Source of the DNA: Clostridia bacterium
GTDB lineage: Bacteria; Bacillota; Clostridia; Oscillospirales; QAMX01
NCBI GenBank assembly: GCA_017533425.1
Contig: JAFXIE010000082.1
Location: 1 to 35,019 of the forward strand
Length of the DNA stretch: 35,019 bases
Reading direction: 5' to 3'
Shown: positions 15,763 through 20,502 of the stretch, one piece after another
Layout: each line of letters opens with the position of its first letter
Numbering within the stretch: position 1 is the stretch's first letter
Notes under the pieces: generated by a model
The model's input: only the letters and a program-made list of their open reading frames with translations
What the model was told of the DNA's origin: nothing
Database searches by the model: none
Position numbers and translations under genes: made by a program

Positions 15763-16317
15763 TTATTCCAGCGGCTTTGCAAAGCACTTTTTGCACCGGC
15801 GCGAAAGCCCAGCGCCTTCCGCCTCGCCCAACGTCATCTCGCGGTAATTTTTCATGCCGGAGCAGTTGGACTTCAGATGCAGAATGTCGGAGGCCGACAC
15901 ATAAACCACGGTATTGCGCACATCCTCCGGCGTCTCCGGTGTATCCGTTGTCTCCGGCATCGGTGTTGGAGAGGGTGAAGGTGTGGGCTTTGGCGTAGCC
16001 GTCGGCGCCTTTGTCGGGGTCGGCTTTGGCGTCACCGTTGGGGTGGGCAGAGGTGTCGCTGTCGGCAGAGGTGTTACCGTCGGGAGAGGTGTTGCCGTCG
16101 GTTCCGGATTCTCGGTCACGGTGCCGGGCGTCGGCTGCGGCGGATCCGGCTGCGGCGAATCATGCGCATACAGGGCAATGCCGCCCACCGCCATGCCCAC
16201 GGCGAGAATGACCACCGACAGGGCGATGCAGATGCGCTTGACGAGGGGTTTTGGCTCCCAAAGGAGGGAAGCAAAGAGCGCCACCGCGCCCAAAATGCAA
16301 ATCAGCGCCGCTGCCAT
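15763..16317 (-). CDS. Membrane protein with Thr-Pro stalk and C-terminal H/C-type metal-site domain
   Basis: This 184-residue protein has two hydrophobic helices (about 1-20 and 28-50), a Pro/Thr-rich low-complexity stalk (about 53-130), and a small C-terminal domain with His147, Cys152, Cys175 and Cys178 in the pattern HxxxxC...CxxC. That domain resembles a small module often appended to clostridial surface proteins, where H and C residues are spaced as in a zinc site; I cannot name its function. The stalk is similar in composition to the linker of the large lipoprotein encoded 1.5 kb away, suggesting both are displayed outside the membrane. GGAGG lies 9 bases before ATG 16317. It is divergent from the DUF975 gene. 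Confidence 0.75.
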   Translation of the reverse strand: MAAALICILGAVALFASLLWEPKPLVKRICIALSVVILAVGMAVGGIALYAHDSPQPDPPQPTPGTVTENPEPTATPLPTVTPLPTATPLPTPTVTPKPTPTKAPTATPKPTPSPSPTPMPETTDTPETPEDVRNTVVYVSASDILHLKSNCSGMKNYREMTLGEAEGAGLSRRCKKCFAKPLE

Positions 16318-16351
16318 GCCCGGTTTCCTCCCATTCCTCGTTTTTTCTCAT

Positions 16352-16380
16352 ATTTTAGCAAGAATCCTGTCCAATTGCAA
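16352..16380 (-). promoter_or_regulatory. Promoter for the stalked membrane protein
   Basis: TTGCAA (16375-16380), 17-base spacer, TAAAAT (16352-16357) on the minus strand. Confidence 0.7.
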
Positions 16381-16387
16381 TCCCGCC

Positions 16388-16416
16388 TTGCATTTTTCCG
16401 GCCGGCATACTATAAT
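16388..16416 (+). promoter_or_regulatory. Promoter for the DUF975 gene
   Basis: TTGCAT (16388-16393), 17-base spacer, TATAAT (16411-16416); AGGAGG (16439-16444) follows ahead of ATG 16453. Confidence 0.78.
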
Positions 16417-16452
16417 GAAGTGTGTAAGCTTTACAAACAGGAGGTTTTTTTC

Positions 16453-17262
16453 ATGCGTACTGCAAGTGAATACCGCGGTATTGCCCGCAGCCGGCTGAAG
16501 GGCAACTGGGGCTCTGCGATCCTCGCATCTCTGCTTGCGGGGCTTTTGGGCGCCGGCGGAAATGTCAGCTTCCCGTCCCTGAATATCTTCGAGGATTTTG
16601 ATATTTCCACCCTCTTCTCCGAAGGTAGGCCCGCCCTGCCGGAGATGCCCGAGCTTCCCTTTCTGCCGCAATCTGCCGGCATATTGCTCACCGCTCTGAT
16701 CCTTCTCGCTATCGCCGCCTTCAGCTCTGTGGTGCTGGCCATCATCGGCGGCGCGCTGGATCTCGGCCACCGCAAGTTCTACGTCCGCCTTATCCACGGC
16801 GAGCGCTGCGACATCGGCGTGCTTTTTGATTATTTCAAATATCTCGGAAAGGCCTTTGTCCTGCGGCTGCTGACCGGGCTCTTTGTTTTCCTCTGGACGC
16901 TGCTGTTCTTCTTCCCCGGCATCATCGCCGCCTACAGCTACGCCATGGCTCCCTACCTGATGGCAAAGGATCCCTCCCTCTCCCCCATGGCCGCTCTGCG
17001 GATGTCCAAGGAAATGATGCGCGGCAAGAAGCTGGAGCTTTTCGTCCTGCATCTCTCCTTCATCGGCCGGTCGCTGCTTTCCTCCCTGGTCTGCGGCCTC
17101 GGTTTTATCTTCCTCACCCCCTATATGCAGGCCGCAGAAGCCGCCTTCGCCCTGGATCTCATGGGCATCGGCGCCGACCTGCCGGGCGAAACGCCGGCCG
17201 CCTCTCAGCCCGAACCCCCGACCTCTCCCCCGCCGGGAATCGACAACGTATTTGATGCATAA
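16453..17262 (+). CDS. DUF975-family integral membrane protein
   Basis: This 269-residue polytopic membrane protein starts with the family-typical ASEYRGIARSRLKGNWGSA and later has PYLMAKDPSLSPMAALRMSKEMMRGKK and LHLSFIGRSLL, a pattern shared by DUF975 proteins of Firmicutes. Four to six hydrophobic segments are visible (for example around residues 17-35, 75-105, 130-160 and 200-225), with a proline-rich cytoplasmic-looking tail. The function of the family is not established. ATG 16453 is chosen because of the AGGAGG and the promoter; the frame is open further upstream but through non-coding DNA. It ends at a bidirectional terminator shared with the lipoprotein gene. Confidence 0.87.
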   Translation: MRTASEYRGIARSRLKGNWGSAILASLLAGLLGAGGNVSFPSLNIFEDFDISTLFSEGRPALPEMPELPFLPQSAGILLTALILLAIAAFSSVVLAIIGGALDLGHRKFYVRLIHGERCDIGVLFDYFKYLGKAFVLRLLTGLFVFLWTLLFFFPGIIAAYSYAMAPYLMAKDPSLSPMAALRMSKEMMRGKKLELFVLHLSFIGRSLLSSLVCGLGFIFLTPYMQAAEAAFALDLMGIGADLPGETPAASQPEPPTSPPPGIDNVFDA

Positions 17263-17267
17263 AAACA

Positions 17268-17300
17268 AAAGCAGAGGCGAAGAAATTTCGCCTCTGCTTT
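17268..17300. terminator. Bidirectional terminator between DUF975 and lipoprotein genes
   Basis: A 14-bp stem AAAGCAGAGGCGAA/TTCGCCTCTGCTTT (17268-17281/17287-17300) with loop GAAAT, followed by a T run on the plus strand and A/T-rich sequence on the other. It lies between the converging stops at 17262 and 17310. Confidence 0.93.
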
Positions 17301-17309
17301 TTTTGGGGT

Positions 17310-20198
17310 TCAGCTATTGTGAATATCGGCCAGGAATTGATCAATGGCTGTGCAGGCATTGCTCCACGCCTCGGCAGAGGACACGTCCCCGGCCAGGAAA
17401 TCAGTAAAGAGCACCATCTGCTCGTTGAGCTTGCTTGACTGAACAGAGCCTGTAAGCTCACGCTCGTCACAACCAAGAGAAGGAATGATATAATTTTTGA
17501 ACATGTCAACCTGGTCACTGTCATAAAGTTGGCCGGAGGCAATGTTATAATCCACATATGCTTCGTAGTCGTTGATCGCTTCGGCAATGGCTGCAAAGGC
17601 CGTTGCCGCCTTGGTCTTTTCCGTCTTGTCAAAGCCTATGGGCATTGCATACACTACAGTGTCCTGCATCGCGGCATAATAGCGCTTTTCCTTCAGGAGC
17701 GTTTCCGAAACCGGAGCCGGGACAATGCACACATTTTTCTCATACTGTGACATGTCCTCTGTAATATCGGATCTGTATAAATAATCATAACCAAAGGAAG
17801 AGAACACCGTTTTTCCTTCCAAAACAGCCCTTCTGACATTCCCCGATCCGGTCCGCCAAACAAGTCCGTCCTTCAGCAGCGTCTTCAGCCAATCCATAAC
17901 CGCCGTGATTCCGGTGTTTGTTTTCACCGCTTTATAGGTGTTTCCCACCTTTTCCACCATCTGCCCGCCGCCGAGATAGGAAACATGTGACAGGCAATTA
18001 TTGTAGAAGGTGAGTCCGTACACCTCGGGGCTTCCATCTTGATTCTGATCGGCAACATAACCGGCGTTCATAATCTTTGCAGCCTCTTCCAGAGACCATT
18101 TGTAATCGCGGACAAGCTTATAGATGGTCGCCGCGGAATAACCGGCTTTTTCCACTACATTCTTATTGAATGCCCAGATGTTACCGTGGTTCATCTCGGT
18201 AACCTCCATCGAGCCGGAGATAAGGCCGACGCCAACCTGCTTGCCGTCAATGACCGCCTGTGATGTAACGGCCTGCCAGAAGCGATCCGGGTCATCAATA
18301 TCAAAGCCCGTTTCGGCGGTGTCCAGCTCAGAGAGATCAACAAAGAAATCCTGCAGTCCGCCGGAAAATGCATAGGGCAGCTTCGTTGCATAGAAGTGCG
18401 CCCCGGCAACGCCACCAGCCAAATAGTCCTTTTTGATTTTACTGTAGGCACTGTAGGTCACTGCATCCAAGGTAGTTTCGACCTTAAAGTTATAGTTTTC
18501 CATAACCTTTTCAACCCGGCTGCGGAGATCTTCCGTATATTTATCCAATTCTCCATCGTACTTCAGCAGATATTCCATACCCAATCCGCCGATGCGCAGG
18601 GTAAATCCGCCGAGATCGGGAACGGGCGTGGGAATGCCGTTCTCATATCTCCACTCTCCGGCATAATATGCGCCCTTGACGAAGCAGGCCTCCGGATTAT
18701 CGGTCTCCTCGCCCGGCAGATAGAATGTTTTTTCGACATTCTCTTCCGCGTCCTCAAAGAAAAACACGGTATTCTCAGACGGATTATGGAAAACATCGTC
18801 ATAATAACCGGACAGCCGCATCTTCACGCCGGCAGGAACAACGATTCTCTCAACCACCGGTATTTCCATAAAGGAATCCTGAGCAGATCTGATCTCATAG
18901 ACCGGATTTCCCTCGATCTCTTTCAAGACGGTGTAGCTTTCCAGCGTTTTCCCGCTCCGATCCGGAGGCGAAATTCCGTCAAAGGAAAATCCTCCACCGC
19001 CATAGGAGTAAACCGCTCTAAAGCCATCCTGTAAAAAGACAAAACGGCACCAATTATACAAGAACGCATCTGTGTCTATGTCCGCCTTTGCAAAATCCGG
19101 CTTTTCGACCGTCACTGCATCAACCTGATCAATGACAAAATCGAAAGCAATTCTTTCTATTTTATCATCGTTTTTCTCTAAGCTGACATCGATGGTAAAT
19201 TTTGCAAGATTACCTTTTTGGTCAATTTCACCCTCTATATAGGTACCCTTACCTACCTGATACCAGTCGGGGTCAAGGGCTCCGCCGGAGAGGGCAACAA
19301 GTATCGCTTCTGTCTGCTTATCGGTAAGATCCTTCTTTGAAAATACAATACTTCCATTGAGTTTTCTCGAAACTGTAGGATTCATACCCGCAACCACAGC
19401 GACCACGGACGAACTGTCATAGCTAACGGATACATCCTGATTAACTTCTAAGATTTTTTCCATGGTAAACTCATAGTCCGCATACACCTTCTCGGAAAGA
19501 TACTCACCACGGTTATCAAGTTTCCAGGCTACCGATCCCTCATAATAGGAAGTTTCGATATCATAAACCGCCGTATTTCCATCTTCCGTCACAAAAGCCT
19601 CTTCGTTGTGTAATATTCGGTTAGTGCCATCCTTCTTATCTACGAGGTATTCAAACTCGCGAACATACGAAGACATTTCGTATACCGTTGTCTCGATCAT
19701 GTTCAGCCGATAGGACTTTGCGTTTTTCAGCTGCTTTACCGCATCGGCAAAGGTCGGCAGCGGCTCCGGGGTCGCTGTCGGCTTAGGGGTTGCCGTAGGC
19801 TGCGGGGTTGCTGTGGGCTGCGCTGTGGGTTCCGGGGTTGGCGTTGCCTCAGGTGCCGTGGTGGGGGTGGCCTCAGGTGCCGTGGTGGGCGTTGCCTCAG
19901 GCGTCGCAGTGGGTTTTCCCTCCGGTGCCTTGGTCGGGGTTGCCTCCGGCGCATCTGTGGGGGACGGCGTCGCCGGGCTTGTTGCCTGCGGGGCTTCCGT
20001 AGGCTCAACATCCGGCGTCGGCTCCGGCGATTCGGAAACGTCCGGCTCCGAGGATGAACCGGTCTCGGTTCCCGGCGTCGGATCCGGCTCGGTCACTGAG
20101 GATGCCGATCCGATATCATCCTCGCCGCATCCGGCAGCAAGGGATGCAATGGAGACCAGCATGACCAGCACCAGCAGCATTGATAGCAGTCTCTTCAT
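17310..20198 (-). CDS. Large surface lipoprotein with extracellular solute-binding-like C-terminal half
   Basis: This 962-residue protein has a lipoprotein signal peptide ending in LAAGC (Cys24) and a long Pro/Thr/Ala stalk (about 35-155). A middle region opening QLKNAKSYRLNMIETTVYE looks like an LppX/DUF6612-type lipoprotein domain. From about residue 540 the sequence resembles family 1 solute-binding proteins (GYVADQNQDGSPEVYGLTF, PAPVSETLLKEKRYYAAMQD, AMPIGFDKTEKTKAATAF). Such a domain normally feeds an ABC importer, but no permease or ATPase is adjacent. ATG 20198 has GGAGG seven bases upstream; extending the start upstream would run into the leader terminator. By eye 17310-19700 is more AT-rich than its neighbours, consistent with transfer or different constraint. 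It is controlled by the structured leader described separately. Confidence 0.85.
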   Translation of the reverse strand: MKRLLSMLLVLVMLVSIASLAAGCGEDDIGSASSVTEPDPTPGTETGSSSEPDVSESPEPTPDVEPTEAPQATSPATPSPTDAPEATPTKAPEGKPTATPEATPTTAPEATPTTAPEATPTPEPTAQPTATPQPTATPKPTATPEPLPTFADAVKQLKNAKSYRLNMIETTVYEMSSYVREFEYLVDKKDGTNRILHNEEAFVTEDGNTAVYDIETSYYEGSVAWKLDNRGEYLSEKVYADYEFTMEKILEVNQDVSVSYDSSSVVAVVAGMNPTVSRKLNGSIVFSKKDLTDKQTEAILVALSGGALDPDWYQVGKGTYIEGEIDQKGNLAKFTIDVSLEKNDDKIERIAFDFVIDQVDAVTVEKPDFAKADIDTDAFLYNWCRFVFLQDGFRAVYSYGGGGFSFDGISPPDRSGKTLESYTVLKEIEGNPVYEIRSAQDSFMEIPVVERIVVPAGVKMRLSGYYDDVFHNPSENTVFFFEDAEENVEKTFYLPGEETDNPEACFVKGAYYAGEWRYENGIPTPVPDLGGFTLRIGGLGMEYLLKYDGELDKYTEDLRSRVEKVMENYNFKVETTLDAVTYSAYSKIKKDYLAGGVAGAHFYATKLPYAFSGGLQDFFVDLSELDTAETGFDIDDPDRFWQAVTSQAVIDGKQVGVGLISGSMEVTEMNHGNIWAFNKNVVEKAGYSAATIYKLVRDYKWSLEEAAKIMNAGYVADQNQDGSPEVYGLTFYNNCLSHVSYLGGGQMVEKVGNTYKAVKTNTGITAVMDWLKTLLKDGLVWRTGSGNVRRAVLEGKTVFSSFGYDYLYRSDITEDMSQYEKNVCIVPAPVSETLLKEKRYYAAMQDTVVYAMPIGFDKTEKTKAATAFAAIAEAINDYEAYVDYNIASGQLYDSDQVDMFKNYIIPSLGCDERELTGSVQSSKLNEQMVLFTDFLAGDVSSAEAWSNACTAIDQFLADIHNS

Positions 20199-20217
20199 TT
20201 GGGTTCCTCCCTGAAAT

Positions 20218-20245
20218 AAAAAAGTGCGCAGCCGAAGCCACGCAC
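20218..20245 (-). terminator. Intrinsic terminator inside the lipoprotein leader
   Basis: GTGCGTGGC-TTCG-GCTGCGCAC (20224-20245 read on the minus strand) followed by six T (20218-20223). It lies after the promoter and before the Shine-Dalgarno, so it is an attenuator, not a gene-end terminator. Confidence 0.88.
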
Positions 20246-20385
20246 AAAAAATACATAGCTCCGTTTGCTGCGACACAAATTTCTACCTACTATCAAAAGC
20301 ATGCGGAAAAAGAGCCTGTATTTTTATCGGGAGATAAAAATACACACTTTTGACAATAGGCTCAAGATATGAATTTGTGTCGCAG
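20224..20385 (-). promoter_or_regulatory. Structured leader RNA with attenuator: candidate riboswitch, class not recognised
   Basis: The predicted transcript starts near 20384 and folds as follows. P1 is GCGACACAAATT with its complement (20372-20385 and 20268-20281, up to 14 bp). Inside are an 11-bp hairpin GTATTTTTATC/GATAAAAATAC (20318-20328/20333-20343), and two alternative pairings: GAGCCT/AGGCTC (20312-20317/20358-20363), and CTATTGTCAAAAG (20347-20359) with the CTTTTGATAGTAG segment (20287-20299). The 3' strand of P1 with the next bases (GTGTCGCAGC) can pair with the terminator's 3' arm (GCTGCGCAC) over 9 bp with one bulge. P1 and that antiterminator are mutually exclusive, the usual logic of a transcriptional riboswitch. 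I matched it to no class I know; a self-standing small RNA is the main alternative. Confidence 0.65.
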
Positions 20386-20389
20386 AGCC

Positions 20390-20418
20390 ATTATAGCATA
20401 TGCTCAATTTCATTTCAA
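20390..20418 (-). promoter_or_regulatory. Sigma-A promoter of the lipoprotein leader
   Basis: TTGAAA (20413-20418), 17-base spacer, TATAAT (20390-20395) on the minus strand. The predicted start falls at the 5' strand of the leader's closing stem. Confidence 0.88.
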
Positions 20419-20443
20419 GTCGTTTCTGCCTATTTTAGGCAAA

Positions 20444-20475
20444 AGAAGGACAGAGAAAGCCTTCTCTGTCCTTCT
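20444..20475. terminator. Terminator after the P-type ATPase gene
   Basis: A perfect 14-bp stem AGAAGGACAGAGAA/TTCTCTGTCCTTCT (20444-20457/20462-20475) with loop AGCC. The T run is short on the minus strand (four) and longer on the plus strand. Confidence 0.85.
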
Positions 20476-20502
20476 ATTTTTTGTGCGTATGGAGTTTTCG
20501 GC

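Follow-up and report, generated by a model that had tools for sequence, protein, structure and literature searches.

What controls the gene for a predicted 962-aa lipoprotein, encoded on the minus strand (17310-20198) of Clostridia bacterium contig JAFXIE010000082.1, is the question raised by the sequence ahead of it, which had been proposed to hold a new riboswitch or attenuator. We address it here for the window, the whole 35,019-nt stretch of DNA that was analysed, and for homologous leaders in other genomes.

The lipoprotein gene is preceded by an attenuator-like leader

Promoter, leader and start codon span 20418-20198 of the minus strand, and all the parts described by the original prediction are in place. 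The consensus promoter (20418-20390) consists of a −35 box, TTGAAA (20413-20418), a 17-nt spacer and a −10 box, TATAAT (20390-20395), and we expect transcription to start near 20384. The closing stem anticipated at the 5′ end of the transcript, P1, is 14 bp long (CTGCGACACAAATT/AATTTGTGTCGCAG; strand P1a at 20385-20372 with P1b at 20281-20268) and begins 4 nt past the −10 box. Within it, the inner hairpin region does hold two rival long-range pairings, GAGCCT:AGGCTC and ATTGTCAAAAG:CTTTTGATAGT. Downstream lies a G+C-rich terminator (GTGCGTGGC-TTCG-GCTGCGCAC, 20245-20224) with its T6 tract (20218-20223), followed by a ribosome binding site, GGGAGG where GGAGG had been noted (20206-20211), and the ATG at 20198 that opens the reading frame. 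Promoter, leader and intrinsic terminator thus precede the ribosome binding site of a gene on the same strand, which is the layout of an attenuator.

The strands of the leader are supported by the swap tests and column counts described below. Besides P1a and P1b, they are P2a (20347-20360) and its partner P2b (20286-20299, overlapping c), strand a (20333-20351, overlapping the 3′ end of P2a), strand b (GAUAAAAAUACAGGCUC, 20312-20328), strand c (20295-20305), linker d (CGGAGCUAUGUAUUUUUU, 20246-20263), the terminator 5′ arm T5 plus loop (GUGCGUGGC UUCG, 20233-20245) and the 3′ arm T3 (20224-20232). Between P1a and P2a, the unpaired junction J1/2 (20367-20371) is of an AAUA type, CAUAU in this copy, and stands out by its conserved positions in 74 copies.

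The leader folds at −76.3 kcal/mol against −42.9 kcal/mol for shuffled sequence (z = −8.0; 0/200 shuffles were as stable). Because of this folding score and the homologous leaders found in many genomes, its structure is far beyond chance. The original prediction had described a mutually exclusive switch, and that architecture was seen; it had missed two of the pairings involved, a pseudoknot between b and d and a 13-bp antiterminator between d and T5 (20263-20251 with 20245-20233, −17.0 kcal/mol) that is present in the minimum-free-energy fold. The 9-bp antiterminator proposed instead, P1b:T3, exists as CGCAGC:GCUGCG plus GUG:CAC with a bulged U (−13.2 kcal/mol). The rival helices are near each other in energy, as would be expected of a switch.

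The leader recurs in Clostridia and matches no Rfam family

A DNA search recovered related leaders from the window's own genome and from the same order. These homologues share the promoter, the closing stem, a GGUAAAAAUGC-type inner arm, a UUUUU linker and a GUGCG...CGCAC-type terminator, and in most cases a start codon comes next. With a covariance model, R1, built from 11 leaders and calibrated briefly, so that its E-values are rough, we found the leader in 105/295 genomes belonging to the order and in 88/341 belonging to the class. In a phylum-wide draw of 249 genomes, the window's own genome was the single match. The named records with exact core matches are metagenome-assembled Clostridia, Oscillospiraceae, and Ruminococcus and its relatives, many of them from animal gut or rumen. 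In these large surveys of metagenome-assembled genomes the number of matches scored was capped for each genome; nine genomes searched more deeply, on which our copy numbers rest, carry 3, 4, 8, 10, 14, 15, 16, 28 and 30 copies. Tandem double and triple copies are common; one locus (L077:2251-2812) has a direct array of three leaders, spaced by about 43 nt and each equipped with a promoter, ahead of a single 92-aa gene whose product has no Pfam match.

The original prediction had seen no likeness to common riboswitch classes, and the Rfam 15 scan bore this out. Among 4227 models, riboswitches included, no family reached its gathering score in the window and nothing below that score was convincing, while in 20 homologous loci no match covered the leader, and we rejected known Rfam classes as its identity. 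The above-gathering matches in those loci (tRNA, THF riboswitch and Gut-1) all lay outside the leader; the THF riboswitch and Gut-1 RNAs are near to but separate from leader copies, at L013:2470-2568 and L019:847-1028. We found no earlier description of the leader in the open-access literature, including two large riboswitch-discovery papers.

Attenuators of Bacillota typically combine a terminator with an antiterminator, and on that ground the leader could be a ribosome-mediated, leader-peptide attenuator or a T-box. We regard this as a very remote prospect and the reading as largely refuted: no more than 11/175 copies contain a short open reading frame preceded by a ribosome binding site, with no common peptide, and neither a T-box nor a leader family was matched at Rfam thresholds.

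Both sets of alternative pairings covary

In the swap test, the energy of each helix with its own partner was compared with its energy when partners were taken from other copies. Across 64 non-redundant copies, strong z values were obtained for P1 (−23.8), P2 (−24.5), a:c (−20.6) and T5:T3 (−17.5), followed by a:b (−12.9), b:d (−12.2), d:T5 plus loop (−8.5) and P1b:T3 (−4.7); the control pairs b:T5, a:d, c:d and c:T5 stayed at zero (z +0.3 to −0.7). We then applied a stricter version in which partners were exchanged between nearest relatives only, in 56 disjoint pairs. All supported pairings survived this exchange, with p values of 1e-11 for P2, 1e-14 for a:c, 1e-5 for a:b, 4e-6 for b:d and 4e-11 for T5:T3, and the control pairs were not significant. 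Support was lowest for P1b:T3 (p 0.014, uncorrected) and next lowest for d:T5 (p 0.002).

Column counts over 74 copies agreed with the swap tests. In the structure that we call OFF, 92.8% of cells were paired and 34/43 pairs had changed on both sides; for the ON structure these values were 85.0% and 20/30, compared with 21-58% paired in slid registers. The ON pair statistics are weaker than those of OFF, and the both-side-change count of the ON set was matched by 43/500 shuffles, the other four of its five measures by none. Among single helices, P1 was 96.3% paired with 11/12 pairs changed on both sides, T5:T3 was 99.4% paired with 7/9 so changed, b:d was 90.8% paired, and the two parts of d:T5 were paired in 92% and 81% of cells. 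P1b:T3, at 79%, is the weakest of the conserved pairings; in both tests it ranks last, and we rejected it as the main antiterminator while keeping it as a possible extra step.

The strands of these helices overlap column by column and the pairings are therefore mutually exclusive. Computational support thus covers the anatomy, its conservation, the covariation of each pairing and the strand overlap. In sequence comparison the exclusive terminator and antiterminator, T5:T3 and d:T5, are conserved through covariation, and the cis-acting attenuator with covarying homologues that had been foreseen is supported by swap tests and column counts alike. Conservation extends to unpaired positions, namely AAUA after P1a (in J1/2, A 95%, U 89% and A 93% over the 74 copies), a GG within the hairpin loop and a CA that follows P1b, which could be candidate sensor sites. 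The promoter is conserved with them: among 174 copies the TT of TTGACA is kept in 83-88%, the −10 box is a TG-extended TATAAT, and P1 begins 4 nt past it in 125/174.

A relay of exclusive pairings may couple the leader to termination

We consider it likely that the window leader belongs to a class of cis-acting transcription attenuators found across Clostridia, each a promoter-plus-leader cassette that would act through a relay of exclusive pairings. In this model the strands form a chain, c-a-b-d-T5-T3, less surely extended by T3-P1b-P1a, in which each strand could pair with either neighbour, and two full pairings of the chain would be possible. In OFF, P1 and P2 would form with a:c, which extends P2, leaving b free to take linker d as a pseudoknot across P1; the terminator T5:T3 would then form and transcription would end after about 165 nt. 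In ON, a local a:b hairpin would leave d free to pair with T5 as the antiterminator, possibly with P1b:T3 as an extra step, and RNA polymerase would continue into the gene. A signal, for which P1 and the conserved AAUA junction may be the site of action, would tip the balance between a:b and a:c. We infer the order of these events and the direction of the switch.

Such a leader would resemble the transcription-terminating riboswitches of Bacillota, such as S-box/SAM-I and purine riboswitches, in being a 5′ leader with an exclusive terminator and antiterminator and an upstream anti-antiterminator, followed by a ribosome binding site and ATG. It differs from them in its longer relay (a, b, d, T5), in the use of a pseudoknot as the anti-antiterminator, and in having neither an Rfam match nor a shared metabolic pathway downstream. 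In its mode of action it would match classical attenuators or the expression platforms of riboswitches, yet it stands outside the Rfam 15 families. We regard it as a new class of attenuator, for which 'riboswitch' would be a tentative label.

The promoter-leader appears to spread as a cassette

Near-identical leaders precede unrelated genes, and in 302/370 full-length pairs homology reaches at most 60 nt beyond the leader on its upstream side and stops within 15 nt of its end or earlier. In two sister genomes, the interval beside the P-type ATPase gene holds other sequence, with no leader and no such lipoprotein; in the window, the corresponding variable spot is 17265-20500, flanked by the P-type ATPase gene and by the next gene (16162-17262). 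The leader therefore behaves, as far as such comparisons can tell, as a cassette able to move or recombine, either by itself or together with a gene, and the promoter-leader appears to spread partly independently of genes. No match to it was found on plasmids, and viral contigs gave no exact match, the nearest being two unannotated phage-labelled records at about 75% identity; with almost nothing in phage collections, we set aside a plasmid or phage origin.

Spread of this kind invites a comparison with the pneumococcal BOX and RUP elements and with MITEs, which are multi-copy, intergenic, partly palindromic and placed before unrelated genes, as the leader is. (MITEs are the subject of a review, PMC10969869.) Could the leader be only a mobile palindrome, with an incidental promoter and terminator and no regulatory role? 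Its 1-30 copies per genome, the near-abrupt ends of homology before unrelated genes and the variable spot in sister genomes would fit, and it does combine multi-copy occurrence with movement that appears partly independent of its neighbours. But the inverted repeat, P1, is not at the ends of the unit: promoter and terminator lie outside P1 and belong to the conserved unit, and linker and terminator are conserved as well as the repeat itself. Unlike these elements, the leader carries a promoter, points to gene starts that follow after a short, fixed interval and maintains, by covariation, two alternative RNA folds with overlapping strands. We rejected the pure mobile palindrome, whose probability we judge to be low, since conservation exceeds the inverted repeat and copies are gene-linked; spread as a cassette and regulatory function are compatible.

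A 5′ leader with inverted repeats ahead of surface genes also recalls the cwpV-type invertible leader of Clostridioides difficile, where inverted repeats and a terminator in the 5′ leader decide surface-gene expression. The closing-stem repeats here could likewise be recombination sites for phase variation, inversion making or breaking the terminator. The copies listed, though, all have their inner region in one orientation by inspection, an exact forward GGYAAAA anchor is present in 131/175 copies with variants of it in the remaining copies inspected, and the repeats covary as an RNA stem, so that an invertible DNA element is highly improbable.

A separate observation concerns integration. 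In two genomes (L110 and L128) the leader terminator is broken at the same point, ...GTGCGTAGCTTC|TGTTAAATGAACATAAGGA, by DNA encoding a large serine recombinase with Resolvase/Recombinase Pfam matches (934-2565 minus in L110, with the insert from about 850; 501-2132 plus in L128). An integrative element may use the leader terminator as its attachment site.

Downstream genes are diverse and rich in surface proteins

The probable attenuator is linked to gene starts. A start codon with a ribosome binding site follows within 60 nt in 123/174 copies with enough sequence (median 19 nt), which argues against the gene-free scattered palindrome that would have undermined the original prediction; the ~29% of copies with no clear gene start within 60 nt include some that are the first of a tandem pair. 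BspA-type leucine-rich repeat proteins made up 13/100 scanned downstream products, alongside lipoproteins, secreted and membrane proteins, zinc-ribbon proteins, AMP-binding enzymes, small accessory proteins, and AbrB-like and HTH regulators. By a crude N-terminal test, 53% of downstream products were signal-peptide- or lipoprotein-like, against 34% of other genes at the same loci. No common pathway emerged among the products examined. Four leaders (L011, L046, L065 and L134) stand before homologous AMP-binding enzymes that start near (M)TGYPSIDKPWLKYY, which may hint at the nature of the signal.

A solute-binding-like domain in the window lipoprotein had suggested a small-molecule ligand. The 962-aa protein has a lipobox-like LAAGC at the N terminus of its translation and no Pfam family. 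Its relatives in the window's own and a sister genome (G000 and G002) are 41-43% identical over the C-terminal half and have no leader in the flanks examined. Because the leader precedes many unrelated genes, the domain is no clue to a ligand, and we abandoned the attempt to read one from the downstream gene.

As to the signal, we find an RNA-binding protein about as plausible as a diffusible metabolite or second messenger. It is quite possible, if short of an even chance, that the leader is a small-molecule riboswitch that binds a metabolite or second messenger, probably at P1 and the AAUA junction, and that the many surface and accessory genes make up a single regulon controlled by that signal. 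The closing stem is conserved, as are unpaired positions next to it; these, an expression-platform logic like that of riboswitches and targets rich in surface proteins are consistent with this. So are the tandem copies: tandem arrays of c-di-GMP riboswitches are described in PMC4759541. The leader is like these riboswitches in its many copies per genome, its tandem copies and its diverse, partly surface-related targets, but its sequence and architecture differ and it does not match the Rfam c-di-GMP models. More generally, the riboswitch reading has neither a ligand nor a shared-pathway gene downstream to point to, nor similarity to any Rfam riboswitch, and the alternative helices fill nearly the whole RNA, leaving little space for a large separate aptamer. 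Tentatively, an RNA-binding protein might instead read the conserved P1, AAUA and loop sequences and select one fold. P1 keeps the sequence ACACA/UGUGU beyond the needs of pairing, and a single trans factor would account for many unrelated targets.

Whichever the signal, a single RNA switch class could subject dozens of genes in gut Clostridia, unrelated to one another and encoding surface, secreted and accessory products, to one global signal, through an exclusive-pairing relay with a pseudoknot anti-antiterminator. Such an orphan regulator on the scale of a regulon is a prospect that we rate at close to even. The relay model singles out strands for mutation and predicts the compensatory changes that should rescue them. 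If it is right, gut Clostridia, most of them uncultured, would have a notable share of their surface and accessory genes under an RNA switch absent from Rfam 15, of which a single genome can hold up to about 30 copies, and the leader would give entry to the signal by which these bacteria choose their surface proteins.
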